A program made the position numbers and the translations under genes. 64,000 nt of DNA from Shewanella pealeana ATCC 700345. GTDB lineage: Bacteria > Pseudomonadota > Gammaproteobacteria > Enterobacterales > Shewanellaceae. Below are positions 12,989 to 22,435 of the stretch, piece by piece (the stretch's first letter is position 1; every line of letters starts with the position of its first letter). The stretch covers positions 867,001-931,000 of the forward strand of contig NC_009901.1 of NCBI RefSeq assembly GCF_000018285.1, read 5' to 3'. Below the pieces are notes generated by a model, which was given only the letters and a program-made list of their open reading frames with translations, was not told the origin of the DNA and did not search any database.

Positions 12989-14359
12989 ATGAATTTTCAC
13001 GCACTTTTAGCCGATATCAACGCCATTGTCTGGGGGCCTATTACCCTGTGCTTATTGGTGGGAACCGGTCTTTATCTCACTGTTCGACTCAAACTGATCC
13101 AAGTTTTTAAATTGCCTATGGCGCTGGGTTTATTGTTTAAACCTGCAAGTGGTAAGGGCGACTTATCATCATTTGCGGCGCTTTGTACCGCACTGTCGGC
13201 AACTATTGGTACCGGTAATATTGTGGGTGTGGCAACCGCAATTAAAATCGGTGGTCCAGGGGCACTATTTTGGATGTGGCTAGCGGCCTTTTTTGGTATG
13301 GCGACCAAGTACGCCGAATGTATGCTGGCAGTAAAGTATCGCACCACAGATGCCAAAGGTAATATTGCTGGTGGCCCTATGTACTATATCGAACGTGGCC
13401 TAGGGCTTAAGTGGCTGGCGAAGATCTTTGCCATCTTCGGTGTCGGCGTGGCGTTTTTTGGTATAGGTACCTTTGCTCAGGTTAATGCCATCAGTGATGC
13501 CATGACTATCGCTTTCGATATTCCTACTTGGGTAACTGCTGTTGCGCTAACCTTGATGGTGGCGGCGGTGACACTGGGCGGCGTTAAGCGCATCGCTAAT
13601 GTGGCGCAAAAGCTGGTGCCGACTATGGCGCTGGGTTACGTGTTAGCCTGTATGTGGGTGCTGTTTATCTTCTCTGATCAAATTATTCCTGCATTTGAGT
13701 TGGTACTGCACTCAGCTTTTACCCCTATCTCGGCTGCAGGTGGCTTCTTAGGCGCAACGGTTGCTCAAGCGCTGCAAATTGGTATCGCTCGCGGCGTATT
13801 CTCTAATGAATCAGGCCTTGGTAGTGCACCTATTGCCGCCGCTGCCGCGAAGACTAACGAGCCGGTAGAGCAAGGCCTTGTGAGCATGACAGGAACCTTC
13901 TTCGATACGATCTTAATTTGTACCATGACAGGTTTAGTACTGATTATTACCGGTGTGTGGAGCGGTGATACTGCAGGGGCTGCCATGACCAGCGCCGCAT
14001 TTGCTGCCAGTGGCTCAGAAGTTATTGGTCAATATGTGGTAACCATTGCACTGGTTTGTTTTGCCTTTACCACGATTTTAGGTTGGCATTATTACGGTGA
14101 GCGCTGCTGGTATTACCTAACGGGCAGTCGCCTTGGTGATAACGGCATTAAAATCTACCAATTTACCTTTTTAGGCTTAATTGCAGGTGGCGCATTTATT
14201 CACTTAGATCTGATTTGGATGCTAGCCGATACCGTAAACGGCTTGATGGCGATCCCTAACTTGATAGCCCTCATAGGCTTAAGGCACGTGATCTTAAAAG
14301 AGACTCGCAAATATTTTGCTAAGCAGCAAGCCTTAGCGAACCAAAGCTCGCTGGCTTAA
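12989..14359 (+). CDS. Sodium:alanine/glycine symporter, AGCS family
   Basis: 456-residue inner-membrane carrier with about 10-11 helices. Family marks are ATIGTGNIVGVATAIKIGGPGALFWMW (residues about 70-96, cut here by position), AECMLAVKYR and GGPMYYIERGLG, followed by NESGLGSAPIAAAAAKT. AGCS carriers take up alanine or glycine with Na+. The glycine riboswitch upstream favours glycine as the controlling, and probably transported, amino acid. A GAGG ribosome site is a few bases upstream of ATG 12989. A strong terminator follows. Confidence 0.93.
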   Translation: MNFHALLADINAIVWGPITLCLLVGTGLYLTVRLKLIQVFKLPMALGLLFKPASGKGDLSSFAALCTALSATIGTGNIVGVATAIKIGGPGALFWMWLAAFFGMATKYAECMLAVKYRTTDAKGNIAGGPMYYIERGLGLKWLAKIFAIFGVGVAFFGIGTFAQVNAISDAMTIAFDIPTWVTAVALTLMVAAVTLGGVKRIANVAQKLVPTMALGYVLACMWVLFIFSDQIIPAFELVLHSAFTPISAAGGFLGATVAQALQIGIARGVFSNESGLGSAPIAAAAAKTNEPVEQGLVSMTGTFFDTILICTMTGLVLIITGVWSGDTAGAAMTSAAFAASGSEVIGQYVVTIALVCFAFTTILGWHYYGERCWYYLTGSRLGDNGIKIYQFTFLGLIAGGAFIHLDLIWMLADTVNGLMAIPNLIALIGLRHVILKETRKYFAKQQALANQSSLA

Positions 14360-14460: not shown

Positions 14461-14666
14461 TTAGGTTCTTGCTTGCAGAGGTTTAAGTTTTCTTTCTACA
14501 GAGTCACTTGCTAACTGCCGATTGATTGAGCATCAAAATGTCTAAAAATGGCGTATGATCTCGCTTCTGTTATTTGGTCACCGAAACCGCCGCTTTAGTC
14601 ACTTTTGCATAATTGCCAAGCGTGGCGCTTTCCTTTAATTTAGTGACCATCAAAATTTTTATAGCT

Positions 14667-14709
14667 CTAACACTAGACCTAACACTAGATCTAACATTAG
14701 ACCTGACAT
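14667..14709 (+). repeat. 12-bp tandem repeat (CTAACACTAGAC, about 3.6 units)
   Basis: Units CTAACACTAGAC, CTAACACTAGAT, CTAACATTAGAC and partial CTGACAT lie about 60 bases before the SMC-like operon. The rest of 14460-14772 shows no gene; the operon promoter is expected here. Confidence 0.9.
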
Positions 14710-14771: not shown

Positions 14772-17700
14772 ATGCCAAGCTTAAATCGCATCATACTTAT
14801 CGATACTCATCTACCAGGCGTGGTAGAGCTGGCCTTGGATGGCCACACCAATATTTGTGGTACCAACGCATCGGGTAAAACCACACTGCAGCGTCTGGTA
14901 CCGGTTTTTTATGGTGAATATCCGAGTCGAGTGGTGCCATCAACCCGTGACAGTTTTGAGCGCTGGTACTTGCCTCATGATTCAAGCTATATCATCTATG
15001 AATATATCAAGTCTGATGGCCTAGCCTATCAAGCGGTATTGGCGTCGGCGGGCGACGGTAAAGGAGTGAACTACCGCTTTATCGCTAAAGGCTTCGAGCT
15101 TGAGGATTACATCAAGACTAAGCAAGGCGATAGCATTCAGTGCTTCACCATGGCGGAGCTTGGCCGTGAGATGAAGCGCGCCGGTGTGGCGGTGACTAAC
15201 CTGCTTAACACCCGCGAATATCGTGCCATTATCCAAAATGACCGAGCGCTATTAAGTACGGGTAGTAACCGTAATGAGCTGCGTAACTATGCGCGTCAGT
15301 TCTCCCTGTGTGAAGCCGAGCATTCACTGCGTCATATCGAAAAACTGGCCAAGGCGGTGCACTCGAAAGAGGGCAAGATGGAAACCATCAAGTCGATGAT
15401 CGCCGCGATTTTGGAAGAGGATGGCGTTAACCCGCCAAGTTCACGCTTAAATCCACAGCGCGTCGAAGCGTGGATCCGTGAGAGTCAGCTTATTCAAGGC
15501 TTTGAGCAAATTCGCCCTGAGTTTGAAAAGCTAGAGCAGGAGTTTGACCAACTGCTGAGTACCGAGCAGCGTCTTGCTAGCTTGCGCCGCGGTTACAGTA
15601 AAGATGAAACCACAGAGATTGAGCGTCAAGAGCATCATCAAGACTTGTCTAAGGCGTTAAACGCTCAGCTTCGTCAGCTCGACGAAGAGTGGAAGGAGCA
15701 GCGTGATGAGCTTAACCTCGACCTGTCTGCTGCCAAGGGCGACGTGGCTAAGTGCGAGCATGAGCTGGACTCGATTGAAGATCAGCATGCCAGTTTTCAA
15801 GATGCCGATATCGAGCAAGCAAAATCAGATTTAGAGCAGCTACCAAGCTGGCGTGGCAGCTTAGAAAACCTAAGCGAGCGTCATAAGCTACAAACCGAGA
15901 AGCATCAAGATATTGAAGCGGCCTATAACGCTCGCCGTAGTAAGATTGGTGAAGGCTTGAACCGTGAGCTGGAAAACTTGCATCAAGAGCAAGACATCCT
16001 ACGTGAGTCTCGCGATAAGCAAAGAGAGATTGGCCGTAGCGAGCTAGCCGAGCTAGAAGCGCAGTGGCGCGAGTCGACCGAAAAAGGTCAGGCGCAGTTT
16101 AGCGAGCAAGCCTATCAGCTTAAGGTGAATGCGGCTGAGCTTAAGGTACGCGTCGATAGCGTGACTTATTCAGAAGATGAAAAGCTTGCCTTAGCAGTAT
16201 TCGATGAGCGCATCTCCCGCGCCGACGAAGATCAAGAAGCCTGTAATGCCAAGGTCGATCGCTTAACCAGCGAAGAGCGTAAGCTTCGAGCTAAACGCGA
16301 TCAAGCCAACGAGAGCCTACGTGTAGCCGGTATTCGGGTGACAGAGCGCCAAAGTGAGCTCGAAGAGCTGACTCATATGCTGTTCCCGCAGTCGCATACT
16401 TTGCTGGAATTCTTACGTAAAGAGGCGGCAGGCTGGGAAAACACCTTAGGTAAGGTGATTAACTCTGAACTGCTGCACCGCAGCGATCTACACCCAAGTA
16501 TTAGCAGTGAAAGCTTAGAGGCGCTATATGGTATCGCGTTGGACTTAAAAGCCATCGACGCGCCAGAGTATGCCGCCTCAGAGCAAGAGCTACGAGTTAA
16601 ACACGCCGCCGCAGAAGAAGCGTTGTCTAGTGCTAAAGAGCTACAGGCCGAAGCGGAAGACATCTTAGTTGCCAGCAATAGCGAGCTCGATAAATTATTG
16701 CGTGAGCTGACTTTTGCTCGCACAGCATATAAGAATAGCCGTGACGATCTACGTCGCCTATTTGATGACAAACGCGCCGAGCAGGAGAAGATCAACCTTG
16801 CACTGAATGAGCGCAAGGCCGCGTCACAGAAGCAGCTTGCCCGTATCGACAGCGATATTAAGCAGCTCCAAGGCCAGCAACAAGAGTGGCTCGAAGAGCA
16901 AAAAGAGCAAGCGCTCGAAGCGCGCATGGAAAAGAATGCCTACTGGCAGGAAGTGGTTGGCGCGTTAGACAGCCAGCTAAACCAAGTGAAGAGCAATATT
17001 CACAGCCGCCGTGAGCACGCAGCAAGCGAGCAGAAGGCCTGTGAACAGTGGTACAAGAATGAGCTTAAGTCTCGCGGTGTCGACGAAGCGAAAATCGTCG
17101 CCCTTAAGGCTGAAATCCGCACACTTGAGAGCAATATCAGCAAGGCGGAGCAGCGCCGCAGTGAAGTGCTACGTTATGACGACTGGTATCAGCACACTTG
17201 GCTTAAACGTAAGCCTAAGCTGCAGTCTGAGCTAAGCAAGGTGAAGCACGACAGTCTCGATCTTGAGCAACAGCTTAAGAGTAAGGCCAACGAAGTTAAG
17301 GCTAAGCGTAACGAGCTAGATGGCGAGCGTAAGCAATCTGATGCGGTGCAAATTGAAGCCTCAGAAAACTTAACTAAGCTGCGTAGCGTGATGCGTAAAC
17401 TGAGTGAGCTTAAGTTACCAGCTAGTAATGATGACGCCCAAGGTAGTTTGACTGAGCGTCTACGCCAAGGTGAAGATCAGCTGCTGAAACGCGATTCGTT
17501 AATGGGCTCGGTCAAGCAGTATGTTGAGCACTTCGACTCTGTTATTGCCAGCAAATCAGGTTCGGGTCTATCTGAGACCTGGGAGCGCGCCCGCGAAGAA
17601 TCAAGCTTTGTAAACGATAAAGGCATTCGTATTCTCGATTACCGTAAGCTAGTGCCACAGCTTGAGCAGTTGCTAAACGTCATGGTGCCACAGTCTATTA

Positions 17701-18446
17701 TGGCGCTGCGTGAACAAGGCCGTATTTTCGGTGTCGATCTGACCGCCTTCTACGATGTACTGGCCGATATCGATCGCCGCATCGCCTCGCAAAGTGCGCG
17801 TATTACCCGTGAAGTGGGTGAGGAGCTGTTCCTTGATGGCGTATCAGAATCGGCGGTTAAAATTCGCTCGCGTATTAGTGAGTTAGAGTTCTGGCCTGAG
17901 CTTGAGCAGTTTGTAAAAGCCTTTAAACGCTGGAAAGCAGACGGTTTTAACGACTTGCCGGGAGAGGATTACACCAACAGCATGCGCCGCGCACTGGATA
18001 TTATCGGCCGCGCAGCGCTGTCAGGTGGTATTGCTAAACTGCTTGAGATTGAGCTGCGCCTAAAAGAGGGCAATAGCGACCTAGTTATTCGCACCGACAG
18101 ACAACTGAATGAGTCATCGAGCCACGGTATGGCTTACCTGATCTTATGTAAGTTCCTGCTGGCGTTTACCCGTCTACTACGTGGCCGCGCAGAAGTGACC
18201 ATACATTGGCCAATCGACGAGCTGGGCACCTTGCACCACGGTAACGTGAAGAAGATTTTTGATGCTTGTGAAAACAACAATATTTCAGTACTGGGGGCAT
18301 TCCCGAACCCTGAATCTGAGGTATTGAACCTGTTTGCTAACCGTTACATCATCAACAAACAAACTAAGAAACTGCAGGTGGTTAAGCCTCAAGTTAACCC
18401 GATCGCCGAGAAACTCAATCAGCGTCGCACTCAGGAGGCCGTGTAA
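14772..18446 (+). CDS. SMC-like/MukB-like ATPase (DUF3584-type)
   Basis: 1224 residues built like a condensin ATPase. An N-terminal Walker A, GTNASGKTT (Gly30-Thr38), is followed by a long coiled coil (about 245-530), a globular hinge-like break (about 535-610), a second coiled coil (about 615-930) and a C-terminal head. The head carries a signature-like SSSHGMAYLI (about 1115) and Walker B with IDELG (about 1149, preceded by VTIHWP). The size and the MukB-style signature fit the DUF3584/MksB/JetC branch of SMC proteins. It is first in an operon with a MukE-like and a kleisin-like gene; the next ATG overlaps its stop by one base. It probably loops or clears DNA (chromosome compaction or plasmid defence). 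Confidence 0.85.
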   Translation: MPSLNRIILIDTHLPGVVELALDGHTNICGTNASGKTTLQRLVPVFYGEYPSRVVPSTRDSFERWYLPHDSSYIIYEYIKSDGLAYQAVLASAGDGKGVNYRFIAKGFELEDYIKTKQGDSIQCFTMAELGREMKRAGVAVTNLLNTREYRAIIQNDRALLSTGSNRNELRNYARQFSLCEAEHSLRHIEKLAKAVHSKEGKMETIKSMIAAILEEDGVNPPSSRLNPQRVEAWIRESQLIQGFEQIRPEFEKLEQEFDQLLSTEQRLASLRRGYSKDETTEIERQEHHQDLSKALNAQLRQLDEEWKEQRDELNLDLSAAKGDVAKCEHELDSIEDQHASFQDADIEQAKSDLEQLPSWRGSLENLSERHKLQTEKHQDIEAAYNARRSKIGEGLNRELENLHQEQDILRESRDKQREIGRSELAELEAQWRESTEKGQAQFSEQAYQLKVNAAELKVRVDSVTYSEDEKLALAVFDERISRADEDQEACNAKVDRLTSEERKLRAKRDQANESLRVAGIRVTERQSELEELTHMLFPQSHTLLEFLRKEAAGWENTLGKVINSELLHRSDLHPSISSESLEALYGIALDLKAIDAPEYAASEQELRVKHAAAEEALSSAKELQAEAEDILVASNSELDKLLRELTFARTAYKNSRDDLRRLFDDKRAEQEKINLALNERKAASQKQLARIDSDIKQLQGQQQEWLEEQKEQALEARMEKNAYWQEVVGALDSQLNQVKSNIHSRREHAASEQKACEQWYKNELKSRGVDEAKIVALKAEIRTLESNISKAEQRRSEVLRYDDWYQHTWLKRKPKLQSELSKVKHDSLDLEQQLKSKANEVKAKRNELDGERKQSDAVQIEASENLTKLRSVMRKLSELKLPASNDDAQGSLTERLRQGEDQLLKRDSLMGSVKQYVEHFDSVIASKSGSGLSETWERAREESSFVNDKGIRILDYRKLVPQLEQLLNVMVPQSIMALREQGRIFGVDLTAFYDVLADIDRRIASQSARITREVGEELFLDGVSESAVKIRSRISELEFWPELEQFVKAFKRWKADGFNDLPGEDYTNSMRRALDIIGRAALSGGIAKLLEIELRLKEGNSDLVIRTDRQLNESSSHGMAYLILCKFLLAFTRLLRGRAEVTIHWPIDELGTLHHGNVKKIFDACENNNISVLGAFPNPESEVLNLFANRYIINKQTKKLQVVKPQVNPIAEKLNQRRTQEAV

Positions 18447-19099
18447 TGAGCCAAGTAACCGAAACCGCTATCGTAGGCACCAGTGCCTTAATCGAACGTT
18501 TGTTAAAAGGCCAGTTTATCTGCCGTACTACCGATGAAGACGGCTGGCGCGCACTGAAAAGCCCATCGACTCGTGAGCATGTTGAGCAGTATCTAAATCA
18601 GATTAACCGCACCATTGGCTCGGCTGGCGAAGGTGAAGTGTTTTTCTGTGGCTATCAGCAGCTAGGCGATGGTGAGCGTAAGGTGATCTCGTCGCAGTTT
18701 AAAGATATCTGTAATGCGCTTATTCCGCTGGTTGAGTGGCTAGTGTTAGTGCAAGAGGGTAGTGGTCAAGATGCGCCATTATCTGAAGGCGTAGCCGTGC
18801 GTTTAACTGAGCTGCAAACTCGCATCGAAGACACGCCAGCTTTTCGTGAGCAGTTGGCCAAAATTAGCCATTATCGCCTGTTTGGCTCTACCAGTACTAA
18901 CGTGGACGCGCAGATAAAACTAGTATTCAAGCGTTTGGTGGAGCTCGGCTATCTGACACGACCTAACAGCGAGAAGCAGATCTATATCGCTACAGGTAAG
19001 CTAGATTACCTTTATGAGGTGATTCGTTTTATCGATGAGACCGAAGGCTTAAGCCTTGAAGCCCAAGCTGAAACCGCCACTCAAAGGGACTTAATCTAA
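18446..19099 (+). CDS. MukE-like (JetB/MksE-like) subunit
   Basis: 217-residue soluble protein. The ATG overlaps the stop of the SMC-like gene (TAATG), so translation is coupled. N-terminal ALIERLLKGQFICRTTDEDGW and C-terminal VFKRLVELGYLTRPNSEKQIYIATGKL look like the tandem winged-helix segments of MukE-type proteins; the second has the helix-wing order. The role is inferred mainly from size and position between an SMC ATPase and a kleisin-like gene. No catalytic motif is seen. Confidence 0.65.
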   Translation: MSQVTETAIVGTSALIERLLKGQFICRTTDEDGWRALKSPSTREHVEQYLNQINRTIGSAGEGEVFFCGYQQLGDGERKVISSQFKDICNALIPLVEWLVLVQEGSGQDAPLSEGVAVRLTELQTRIEDTPAFREQLAKISHYRLFGSTSTNVDAQIKLVFKRLVELGYLTRPNSEKQIYIATGKLDYLYEVIRFIDETEGLSLEAQAETATQRDLI

Positions 19100-19100
19100 T

Positions 19101-20321
19101 ATGAGCAGTAACTTACACCAAGCTGGTGTTAAGCTGCTCAAACAGCTTGGACGCCATGCAGAGCTGGTGATGGACGTGTACTTGTCGGGCTCAGTATCGG
19201 TCGATGAGAGCAACGCTGCTGCCATCGATAAGCTGCAAAAGAGCGACATTCTGTGGCGACCAGAGCCAGAGCAGGAACTGCGCCTTAAACGTTCAGTACG
19301 AGCCTTGCTTGAGGAAGCCTTGAGCGATGAGCGTAATCGTCAAATCGACTCCAATGTGGGTTCGTCACTGGCTACTATTAAGACCTTGGCCGACCACTAT
19401 AAAGAGGCGCGCCATAATGTCGATTTTAGTGCATCAGAGGCTTACCTTGCCGATTTAAGCGAGCATGTTTATAGCTTTGCCGATGGCCTGCGCTATTCGA
19501 TTCGTGTGCTGTGGAGCCGCATCAACAACGAGTTTGGTTATGTGGGCAGTATCAACGCTAAAATTCGTGAGAACGAGTTAGCACAATCTCAGGTATCTGA
19601 GCTGCTAAACGGCCTTGAGATGTTCCAGTTTAGCGAACTGGGTGAAATAGCCGGTGATATTCGCGAGCTGCGAAAATTGTTGGTCACCACGCTACAAGAA
19701 ACCTTGAGTGACTGTACCCAGGAACTCAGTGTGGTGCAGGCGCGCTTACTTGAATTACTGGGTCGTTTCCGTCAAATTCGTGGCCGTACTCGTTTGCTAA
19801 AAGGTTGGTTGCTGTATACCGACTTGCATCCAGACTATAAGCCCGCGGATCATGTCAGTCACAAGCAATTGCCGGCGCTATTTAATATTGCCGAGCCACT
19901 GCTTGCGCCAGCGGCGGTAGATGTTAACAATCACGGATTAGAGCCTGAGCTACTTGAGCTAGTCTCAAATATTAAGCGTATCGATCGCTTAAATGATACT
20001 AGTAGTCAGCGCGAGCAAGATGTGTCAGTCGATCTTACTCAGGCGGAAGACTTTGATATTCCGGATAACCCACTTAAGCTGGCGGTAGACGGCTATTTCT
20101 GCGCAGTCATCGATTCGGGCAAGAGCCAGTCAGCATTGGAATATCTTGACGAGCAGCAGCTCCCTTGGGACAGAGAGTCATGGCTGTATCAGGTGATCTG
20201 TGGCTATGAAGGGCTACCAGAGGAGCACCGTAGCTACTTTGAGCTTGAGCATATCGGTGAGCCAGATCCGGTTTATACGGGTAACTTCATCATTAAAGAC
20301 GTAGAGCTGTGGCTGGCGTAG
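19101..20321 (+). CDS. MukF/kleisin-like (JetA/MksF-like) subunit
   Basis: 406 residues, starting one base after the MukE-like stop. It is largely helical, with an N-terminal winged-helix-like part (about 1-75), a helical middle (about 80-240, leucine-rich LLELLGRFRQIRGRTRLLKGW) and a C-terminal globular piece ending FIIKDVELWLA. That architecture, and the operon, suggest the kleisin that bridges the SMC heads. The last 135 bases of this gene, including the stop, are repeated three more times downstream. The downstream copies lack a start and are not translated as part of this protein. Homology to MukF is an inference. Confidence 0.65.
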   Translation: MSSNLHQAGVKLLKQLGRHAELVMDVYLSGSVSVDESNAAAIDKLQKSDILWRPEPEQELRLKRSVRALLEEALSDERNRQIDSNVGSSLATIKTLADHYKEARHNVDFSASEAYLADLSEHVYSFADGLRYSIRVLWSRINNEFGYVGSINAKIRENELAQSQVSELLNGLEMFQFSELGEIAGDIRELRKLLVTTLQETLSDCTQELSVVQARLLELLGRFRQIRGRTRLLKGWLLYTDLHPDYKPADHVSHKQLPALFNIAEPLLAPAAVDVNNHGLEPELLELVSNIKRIDRLNDTSSQREQDVSVDLTQAEDFDIPDNPLKLAVDGYFCAVIDSGKSQSALEYLDEQQLPWDRESWLYQVICGYEGLPEEHRSYFELEHIGEPDPVYTGNFIIKDVELWLA

Positions 20322-20721
20322 GGTTATATGTGGCGATGAAGGGTTTCCTGAACCGAAGAGCACCGTAGCTACTTTGAGCTTGAGCATATTGGTGAGCCAG
20401 ATCCGGTTTATACGGGTAACTTCATCATTAAAGACGTAGAGCTGTGGCTGGCGTAGGGTTATATGTGGCGATGAAGGGTTTCCTGAACCGAAGAGCACCG
20501 TAGCTACTTTGAGCTTGAGCATATTGGTGAGCCAGATCCGGTTTATACGGGTAACTTCATCATTAAAGGCGTAGAGCTGTGGTTAACGTAAGGTTATATG
20601 TGGCGATGAAGGGCTTCCTGAAGCGCACCGTAGTTAGTTTTAGCTTGAGCATATTGGTGAGCTTGACCCGGTTTATACGGGTAACTTCATCATTAAAGAC
20701 GTAGAGTTATGGCTGGCGTAA
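20187..20721 (+). repeat. Tandem 135-bp duplication of the kleisin-like gene's 3' end (four units)
   Basis: Unit 1 is the gene's own end (stop at 20321). Units 2 (20322-20456) and 3 (20457-20591) are exactly 135 bp; unit 4 (20592-20721) is 130 bp. Each unit spans from the codons for ICGYEGLP to the stop after DVELWLA. Units 2-4 carry shared changes (for example TTTCCTGAACCG in 2 and 3), showing stepwise duplication. Unit 4 is the most diverged. The period is 45 codons. Confidence 0.95.
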
Positions 20722-20753
20722 TCTGGCTATAATGGAGCGATAAACGGCCAAGA

Positions 20754-20780
20754 AAAAGCACCTTTAAAGGTGCTTTTTTT
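20754..20780 (+). terminator. Terminator of the SMC-like operon
   Basis: AAAAGCACCTTTAAAGGTGCTTTTTTT is a perfect inverted repeat with T tract, placed after the last tandem unit, so the operon mRNA carries all four copies. Confidence 0.9.
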
Positions 20781-20784
20781 ATGA

Positions 20785-21178
20785 GCATTAATCGGTGTTT
20801 TTGGCCTGATATAGTTTGATTGGCTTTTTGGGTTGTCACTGCTAGTTTATTCATCTGCTTGCTGTTGTTTTTGCGGTGCTTTTAGCTATCCGGTTTTTGA
20901 CTTTTTGTTCTTAAAATGATGTCGTGATGTTGCTGGTGTAAAAGTTGTGTTTGGCGGCACTTTGCGTGCACATCTGGTTAATCGTTTGAAAACAGCCCCT
21001 TACGTGGTGATGTTGAGCTTGGTTATCAAGCTGTTTCAAAAACTATTTGTCCCTTTTTGATTGAATTTTTTGCCAGCATGTTTCACTATCCCTGCCACAA
21101 CGAGATGGAAATCAAGTTTTCATCAAAATTGAAGGCAATAGAAGGCATGCGTTAAGACATGTCCAATAAGGCAAGCAA
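20785..21178. other. Intergenic region with no gene seen
   Basis: About 390 bases, AT-rich, with no convincing ORF or structured RNA. It should hold the promoter of the dicarboxylate symporter; no operator is recognisable by eye. Confidence 0.5.
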
Positions 21179-22435
21179 ATGACTAAATCACTTTCTACAC
21201 GGATCTTTATCGGTCTGTTTTCTGGGCTTATTTTTGGCTCAATCATTCAATACTTCCTCGCAGACATCAGCTTATTTTCTGGCACTATCGTTGAATTAGC
21301 CTCGGGCGCAGGCACCATGTTCGTTAATATGATCATGATGCTAGTGGTGCCACTGGTATTCGTCAGTATCGTATGCGGCGTGTGCGAGCTTAAAGATCTC
21401 AATAGCTTCGGTCGCTTAGGCGGCAAAACATTTGGCTTCTATATCATCAACACCTTAGTGGCTATTTTTGCTGCACTAGGCGTGGCGCTACTGCTTTCTC
21501 CAGGCAAGGGCGTGGATATGTCTAACGGTGGCGGCGTGGATATCGTGGCCACAGAGCTACCTAATCTGGTCGACTTAGTAGTCAGCATTGTACCGAGTAA
21601 CCCGATAGCGGCGTTTAGCTCGGGTAACATGCTACAGGTTATCTTTATGGCACTGCTGCTTGGCGGCGTGATTAAGTCTCTTGGTGAAGCGGCGCAGAGC
21701 GCGGTAAACGGCTTCCAAGTGGCGAATAAGATCATGATGAAGCTGATTAGCGTGGTGATGCAGCTAGCGCCTATCGGTGTATTTGCATTAATGCTGAAGC
21801 TAGGTGCAACCCTAGAAGCGGCAATATTTGGCAGCGTGGTGGAATACCTAGCACTGATCTTAGGCTTGTTGCTGTTATGGATTTTTGTGGTATACCCATT
21901 CGCGGTTGGCTTATTTACCCAGATTTCGGCGAAAGAGTTCCGCGCTAAGACTCGCGAGCAGATCCTATTTTCACTGTCGACGGCCAGCTCAAATGCAACC
22001 ATTCCAGTGACTATGCGCACTCTTACCGATAAACTCGGCGTTAATCGCTCGGTTGCAGGCTTTGGTGTGCCACTCGGCGCGACCATGAACATGGGCGGCG
22101 TATCGATTTATATCACTATTGCTATCTTCTTTGTGGCCAACGCATTTGGCGCGCCAATCCCTATGGAGCAGCTACCCGCATTACTATTTAGTATCTTCTT
22201 ACTGTCAGTAGGGGCTGGTGGCGTACCAGGCGGTGGCATGGTGATGATTGGTGTGCTTATCCATCAGATGGGATTACCTGTAGAAGCGTTCGCAATTGTG
22301 GCAGCGCTAGACCGCCTCATCGACATGGTGCTGACATCTTGTAACGTTGTAGGTGATACAGCTGTACTAACCATAGTTAATGAAACTGAGAAGAGCAGCG
22401 ATGCTAAGTTAGCAGCGGCGCCGGCGCAGGCTTAA
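21179..22435 (+). CDS. Dicarboxylate/amino acid:cation symporter (DAACS/SLC1 family)
   Basis: 418-residue inner-membrane carrier. It contains the re-entrant-loop serine-rich motif SLSTASSNATIP, the NMGG sequence of helix 7 (GATMNMGGVSIYI), and helix 8 with DRLIDMVLTSCNVVGD, the substrate-contacting region. DAACS carriers import C4-dicarboxylates or glutamate/aspartate with Na+ or H+. The arginine that binds the side-chain carboxylate of dicarboxylic amino acids is not evident after DRLIDM, where the segment reads VLTSCNVVGD, so neutral amino acids are also possible. The neighbouring two-component system and fumarate reductase support a C4-dicarboxylate role. A terminator follows. Confidence 0.88.
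   Translation: MTKSLSTRIFIGLFSGLIFGSIIQYFLADISLFSGTIVELASGAGTMFVNMIMMLVVPLVFVSIVCGVCELKDLNSFGRLGGKTFGFYIINTLVAIFAALGVALLLSPGKGVDMSNGGGVDIVATELPNLVDLVVSIVPSNPIAAFSSGNMLQVIFMALLLGGVIKSLGEAAQSAVNGFQVANKIMMKLISVVMQLAPIGVFALMLKLGATLEAAIFGSVVEYLALILGLLLLWIFVVYPFAVGLFTQISAKEFRAKTREQILFSLSTASSNATIPVTMRTLTDKLGVNRSVAGFGVPLGATMNMGGVSIYITIAIFFVANAFGAPIPMEQLPALLFSIFLLSVGAGGVPGGGMVMIGVLIHQMGLPVEAFAIVAALDRLIDMVLTSCNVVGDTAVLTIVNETEKSSDAKLAAAPAQA

Follow-up and report, generated by a model that had tools for sequence, protein, structure and literature searches.

A genus-wide SMC-KITE-kleisin operon of Shewanella, probably derived from a Wadjet-like unit that has lost its nuclease

The window analysed here is a stretch of 64,000 nucleotides of Shewanella pealeana ATCC 700345 (contig NC_009901.1, positions 867,001 to 931,000, forward strand), and the subject of this report is a three-gene operon within it, designated B-E-F, for a structural maintenance of chromosomes (SMC) ATPase, a KITE subunit and a kleisin. 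The operon probably encodes a core accessory condensin-like complex which descends from a Wadjet-like ancestor of the gene order B-E-F-D and has been freed of its plasmid-cleaving effector, the Toprim nuclease D. The observations established here are the operon and its family matches, an SMC present throughout the genus, a nuclease coupled to it in relatives, repeated changes of nuclease state, strong selection on B, E and F where the nuclease is missing, and a window genome with canonical SMC but no MukB match.

Gene B (14772..18446) is predicted to encode a protein of 1224 amino acids, E (18446..19099) one of 217 and F (19101..20321) one of 406, all on the forward strand; the B and E open reading frames (ORFs) share 1 base, and E and F are separated by 1 base. 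An earlier note, made from the DNA alone, had described three coupled genes in B-E-F order without an adjacent nuclease, and this description stands. Its reading of B as a MukB-like ATPase was also borne out: the motifs GTNASGKTT (Walker A, about 14859-14885), SSSHGMAYLI (ABC signature, about 18114-18143) and IDELG (Walker B, about 18213-18227) all lie within B, and a hidden Markov model search gave a full-length match to DUF3584 (PF12128; 1636 bits against a cut-off of 31, residues 8-1196 on profile positions 1-1191). Invariant columns, from which the motifs were placed, also located a conserved block in the middle of the protein (about 16380-16592) which may be hinge-like. The MukB N-terminal family (PF04310) was not among the Pfam matches of B and had no match in the window's genome.

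E, the putative MukE/MksE-like KITE subunit, matched the MksE family (PF21980) marginally, at 27.8 bits against a cut-off of 27, and its score against DUF4194 (19.4 bits) was under the cut-off of 32.7. F had no Pfam match. An AlphaFold2 model of F (mean predicted local distance difference test score 78.1, predicted template modelling score 0.44) has an N-terminal helical domain, long helices and a small helix-and-strand C-terminal domain, with a low-confidence linker at about residues 252-319; in fold searches with this model MukF and MukBEF entries ranked first, none at E 0.001 or better, and the absence of a JetA chain from the 50 matches listed is uninformative either way. F is accordingly described as a putative MukF-like kleisin by predicted fold. 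With the PADLOC Jet models the best JetC match had E 3.7e-4 over 42 residues, the best JetB match had E 1.8e-3, and there was none for the kleisin. A search of PDB sequences with the SMC alone found nothing, and one with SMC, KITE and kleisin profiles returned coiled-coil or chance matches.

A scan of named genomes, built on patterns of the window's own SMC and reaching close relatives only, identified 70 loci, with a title naming Shewanella or Parashewanella in every case and a best-segment SMC identity of 68-99%; relatives of E and F were drawn from genome and plasmid scans. The gene order was B-E-F in the window and in the 69 named loci which extend past B. All three ATPase motifs were present in 69 of 70 SMC rows (the window plus 69 named loci, with L064, cut by a contig end, omitted), the sole exception being L087, the gene of which is split in a metagenome assembly and was tested as its larger piece. 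Directly after the kleisin gene a fourth gene of about 290 codons, D, was found in 30 of the 70 named loci, with 38 lacking it and 2 undetermined, and in 23 of the 30 it overlaps the kleisin gene by 13 bases. D is a DUF7281-type Toprim protein with EN and DxDPxG motifs in 30/30 sequences; its predicted fold resembles MksG, topoisomerase VI-A and JetD, the top matches of a D profile among PDB sequences were Spo11 and TopoVI-A (E 5.2e-4 and 0.0098), and six of the seven D proteins scanned fell under the JetD_C cut-off. Its fold and motifs suggest that D is a nuclease. The ancestral unit was probably B-E-F-D, Wadjet-like with an unusual gene order.

At the window locus the nuclease site is empty. 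From the kleisin stop to the next gene, for a transporter, there are 857 bases (20322..21178) with no gene, no detectable relic and no JetD-type Toprim nuclease subunit, and an alignment with the locus L080 runs to the kleisin stop and resumes beyond the nuclease. When 40 intergenic stretches (the window, 38 nuclease-free loci and L066) were searched for nuclease relics, the best score was 26 bits, compared to 23 bits in one shuffled set, and none was accepted. The suggestion that the operon is a Wadjet relative is half right: its origin is very likely a Wadjet-like unit of four genes, one of them for a Toprim nuclease, and the window has no D. Tandem repeats with a period of about 135 (20223..20720, forward strand) comprise the kleisin 3' end and three copies past the stop; L026 and L066 have two such extra copies each and L033 one partial copy. 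Repeats of this kind were found in 4 of the 40 stretches after nuclease-free or undetermined loci and in 0 of 33 other loci (30 nuclease-bearing core loci, L018, L020 and the nuclease-free L017). A terminator-like palindrome, GCACC-TTTAAA-GGTGC plus a T run (20755..20780, forward strand), was seen by eye and is absent from the listing of the terminator scan.

Conservation and the occurrence of a JetD-like gene, both raised in the earlier note, were assessed in 129 Shewanella genomes. The PF12128 SMC was found in 129/129 and DUF7281 (PF23947) in 62/129. Of 63 DUF7281 places, from which a second fragment in G339 was left out, 61, spread over 60 genomes, have an SMC match no more than 2.5 kb away; the two unlinked ones are in the window's own genome (G000) and in G382. 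The linked nuclease of G291 is part of a diverged second copy of the unit. A core-locus nuclease is therefore present in 59 genomes and absent from 70. Neither a DUF7281 nor a JetD_C match was found in 65 of these 70, the other five being G000, G291, G382, G313 and G372; nuclease counts are a lower bound, as the genome-wide JetD_C search missed a Toprim gene of G000 which the protein scan detects. Canonical SMC was above its cut-off in 125 of the 129 genomes (998 bits in the window's genome) and the MukB family in 4. The window's downstream transporter was found in 62 of the 70 named loci, and of the eight loci without it two end before the kleisin or less than 300 bases after it.

A tree was built by a quick method from 75 concatenated B-E-F rows (70 core and 5 outside). 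At least 8 changes of nuclease state are required on it, all forced by starred branches, and the 69 core rows provide 7 independent nuclease-state contrasts. The window lies within an 11-row nuclease-free clade (support 100), beside which stand three nuclease-bearing rows including S. kaireitica (100). The tree of nucleases unites the 30 core-locus sequences (96/91), and its two large subclades, of 11 and 12 rows, are the two large B-E-F subclades; since the subclades match, co-inheritance with loss fits better than many separate gains, and the direction of change appears to be loss. When residues of B, E and F tracking nuclease presence were sought, the best column among the results listed was B134; of the 7 independent pairs 3 to 4 changed in the same direction there, giving P = 0.125 at the lowest by a sign test, and the column was not accepted.

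Selection was estimated as the pairwise ratio of non-synonymous to synonymous substitution (dN/dS), taken as a ratio of sums over pairs with dS 0.03-1.5 (non-independent pairs, 1 to 55 per cell). Across eight clades, with or without the nuclease, dN/dS of B, E and F was 0.000-0.038, and that of the downstream transporter, used as a control, was 0.003-0.034. The window clade gave 0.020 for B, 0.012 for E, 0.022 for F and 0.023 for the transporter; B gave 0.021-0.038 in the other nuclease-free clades and 0.021-0.034 in the nuclease-bearing ones. In four clades D gave 0.133, 0.146, 0.140 and 0.145. Purifying selection on B, E and F is strong and equally tight with and without the nuclease, and D is the loose part, evolving several times faster.

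In the proposed mechanism, B would dimerise and hydrolyse ATP, F would bridge the heads and E would bind F, an SMC-kleisin-KITE assembly of the MukBEF/MksBEF/Wadjet kind; D would cut small circular DNA, such as plasmids, once it had been extruded by the motor, as in Wadjet. In Shewanella, B-E-F may have become a core set with a task that does not need the nuclease, the likeliest being to loop or segregate the chromosome beside canonical SMC; D would be an optional effector that was lost repeatedly, one of the losses being ancestral to the window clade. Homology, genus-wide presence and selection are what point to loop extrusion and a chromosomal role for B-E-F.

Several points weigh against the proposal of a core condensin-like complex freed of its nuclease. 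The assignment of E and F to their families is based on their order and size, on fold and on a single marginal Pfam match: against E. coli MukE and MukF neither was significant (hhalign probability <1%), Foldseek gave no match to the F model at E 0.001 or better, and in the fold search STAT coiled coils reach the same Z as MukF. In the trees, L076 and L087, both flagged as long branches, join among the nucleases (98/97) and not in the B-E-F tree, and at each node loss is indistinguishable from loss plus regain. The upstream neighbourhood varies, with the window's symporter in just 20 of the 70 named loci, which does not support a fixed genus-wide site between two transporter genes on the upstream side. 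No experiment on this B-E-F family was found. Conservation and selection also do not separate a chromosomal role from defence without a nuclease.

The latter alternative, to which we give a minor share of credence, is that B-E-F compacts, silences or destabilises plasmid or phage DNA without cutting it, somewhat like Smc5/6 restricting viral DNA. Four-gene relatives do look defence-like, being uncommon in the class sample described below and present on plasmids including pMAQU02, and second copies occur within Shewanella (G291 and G383), that of G383 next to a gene with a WYL domain. Patchy distribution and fast evolution are usual in defence genes, a pattern which fits D, unlike B-E-F: the SMC is in every genus genome searched, most loci share the downstream transporter, and the dN/dS of B, E and F resembles that of the transporter.

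The opposite direction of change, in which a chromosomal B-E-F was ancestral and captured the nuclease several times, is unlikely. It would suit an SMC that is universal in the genus sample when D is not, as well as the union of L076 and L087 in the nuclease tree alone, and a minimum of 8 changes does not by itself separate gain from loss. Repeated capture is, however, harder to square with the recurrence of D in the same slot, in 23 of 30 loci with the same 13-base overlap, or with the single clade of core-locus nucleases with large subclades as in B-E-F, and D is still found in this position in units with B-E-F only about 20% identical to the window's.

A nuclease encoded elsewhere in the genome, which the earlier note had offered as one option beside an accessory condensin, is more doubtful again as a partner of B-E-F. 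In G382 an orphan DUF7281 gene (L112 8248-9153) lies 1.23 Mb from the nuclease-free B-E-F, and the 18 kb around it contain nothing that matches B, E or F of the window; in G504 D is displaced about 5 kb from B-E-F with several genes between (L130 11670-18636). The window's genome has a Toprim gene, the sole DUF7281 match found in it, about 653 kb away in fourth place in another operon, which is ordered F-E-B-D and has its own SMC (kleisin-sized, KITE, SMC-sized and Toprim genes; G000:C1 about 1533379-1538876). The KITE protein of that operon scores 121 bits against MksE, and its Toprim protein scores weakly, at 26.5 bits against JetD_C and 33.5 bits against DUF7281. Neither E nor F of the window had a significant sequence match to its KITE and kleisin, and the sole component that matched was its Toprim, to D-type nucleases (E 6e-8). 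Both options of the earlier note were partly true, the local nuclease being gone and the other Toprim having an operon of its own; because that gene sits with its own SMC, the accessory condensin is favoured. The 65 genomes with neither a DUF7281 nor a JetD_C match, in searches known to be incomplete, likewise speak against a distant partner. A WYL-domain gene lies upstream of the second operon (L093 3361-9877; G000:C1 about 1532360-1538876), and the region is likely a defence island; helicase-like and cytosine methyltransferase-like genes, assigned by eye, follow the operon. Separate F-E-B-D operons also occur in G372 and G313, as judged by gene sizes and single family matches.

That the operon is a decaying remnant of a defence system, as a missing effector with repeats in its place might suggest, is extremely improbable, being contradicted by full-length B, E and F with intact ATPase motifs in the 38 nuclease-free named loci and by a B dN/dS of 0.020-0.038 in four nuclease-free clades.

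Returning to the core condensin-like complex, the broader proposition that the genus, and probably neighbouring genera of the order too, made a second chromosomal condensin of a domesticated Wadjet-like machine directed against plasmids is one we favour by a little. Its stages would all be seen at the locus, namely the full B-E-F-D unit, the nuclease lost, the nuclease relocated and the unit swapped (about 21% identical), with a motor constrained like a housekeeping component and a nuclease evolving like an optional weapon. In G368, G307 and G383 (L096, L110 and L111) a window-type symporter (83-90%) and transporter (84-91%) flank a divergent unit in which B, E and F are 20-26% identical to those of the window and D is present, so that the entire unit has apparently been swapped in place. 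Low SMC scores together with a linked nuclease were likewise found in G361, G274, G367 and G288.

Compared to known systems, what is new is the gene order, the genus-wide presence and the recurrent loss of the nuclease. MksBEF or MksBEFG of Pseudomonas aeruginosa and Corynebacterium glutamicum is ordered mksF-E-B-G in PMC10123090, as against B-E-F(-D) here; the window-type SMC belongs to DUF3584 and the nuclease of its relatives to the DUF7281 family, and the KITE subunit passes the MksE family threshold, if marginally. The four-gene relatives share SMC, KITE, kleisin and Toprim components with Wadjet (JetABCD), from which the window differs in lacking D, in gene order and in its weak, short matches to the Jet models. 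With MukBEF the window has in common three subunits, no nuclease and a kleisin model for which MukF entries rank first; it differs in order (F-E-B was observed in E. coli K-12, as the earlier note had it), in having no PF04310 in its SMC and in that canonical SMC coexists rather than being replaced. D resembles topoisomerase VI-A and Spo11 in its Toprim fold with E and DxD, but is encoded in an SMC operon and has about 290 residues.

According to the review PMC10586767, Wadjet cleaves small circular DNA via JetD, for which a total-extrusion mechanism is proposed, and the catalytic tyrosine known from topoisomerases is reportedly missing in the CAP domain of JetD. The same review describes P. 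aeruginosa MksBEF, which helps to organise the chromosome, as thought to derive from such a system via loss of JetD, and speculates that MukBEF and MksBEF arose from Wadjet through nuclease loss; a view reported in PMC12153180 is that the resemblance of MukBEF/MksBEF to SMC complexes is due to convergence. The step speculated upon in PMC10586767 appears several times within one genus here; close relatives stand on either side of it, and selection on the motor is unchanged. Matched natural pairs, such as S. kaireitica-type loci with D and the S. fidelis/S. schlegeliana group without it, would allow the contribution of an SMC motor to the chromosome to be compared with and without its nuclease, and a role is suggested for DUF3584 and DUF7281. 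Among the titles listed from open-licence PubMed Central none dealt with the Shewanella operon; DUF7281 was named in no paper found there, and of the five that name DUF3584 none, as judged by title and opening abstract, was about its function. One lead, concerning Shewanella condensin and pressure, proved to be a false match on 'condensing'.

Beyond the genus, the SMC was above cut-off in 57 of 148 genomes of the order and DUF7281 in 34. Excluding the window's unlinked match, 32 of the 57 SMC-bearing genomes were also DUF7281-positive; in 31 of them the gene shares a contig with the SMC, at a distance of up to about 8 kb, and in one (G531) it is on another contig. In G402 and G425, of one genus, the SMCs are 95% identical with the same flanks, and D is present in one and not the other. 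In the class sample the SMC was above cut-off in 7 of 274 genomes (G000, G139, G218 as a short fragment, G249, G075, G192 and G171); the last four lie outside the order, and a Toprim-like gene follows in all of them, that of G171 being assigned from its position and motif alone. Of 398 genomes in the phylum sample, 22 were above cut-off, none outside the class, with four in family f172. Among 72,556 plasmid records, kleisin relatives were found in nine and nuclease relatives in five, all among those nine. The conjugative Marinobacter nauticus plasmid pMAQU02 carries a set of four genes (L140 1564-8041) which fit in size and are ordered B-E-F-D, the first annotated as an ATP-binding protein and the other three as hypothetical, near helicase and DNA methyltransferase genes.

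At the window locus itself, promoter and terminator scans gave counts equal to those of shuffles. The operon is flanked on the same strand by a symporter-like gene (12989..14359, AGCS type by eye) and by the transporter gene (21179..22435, dicarboxylate/SLC1 type by eye), and a short tandem repeat with a 12-base unit lies directly upstream of it (14662-14708).

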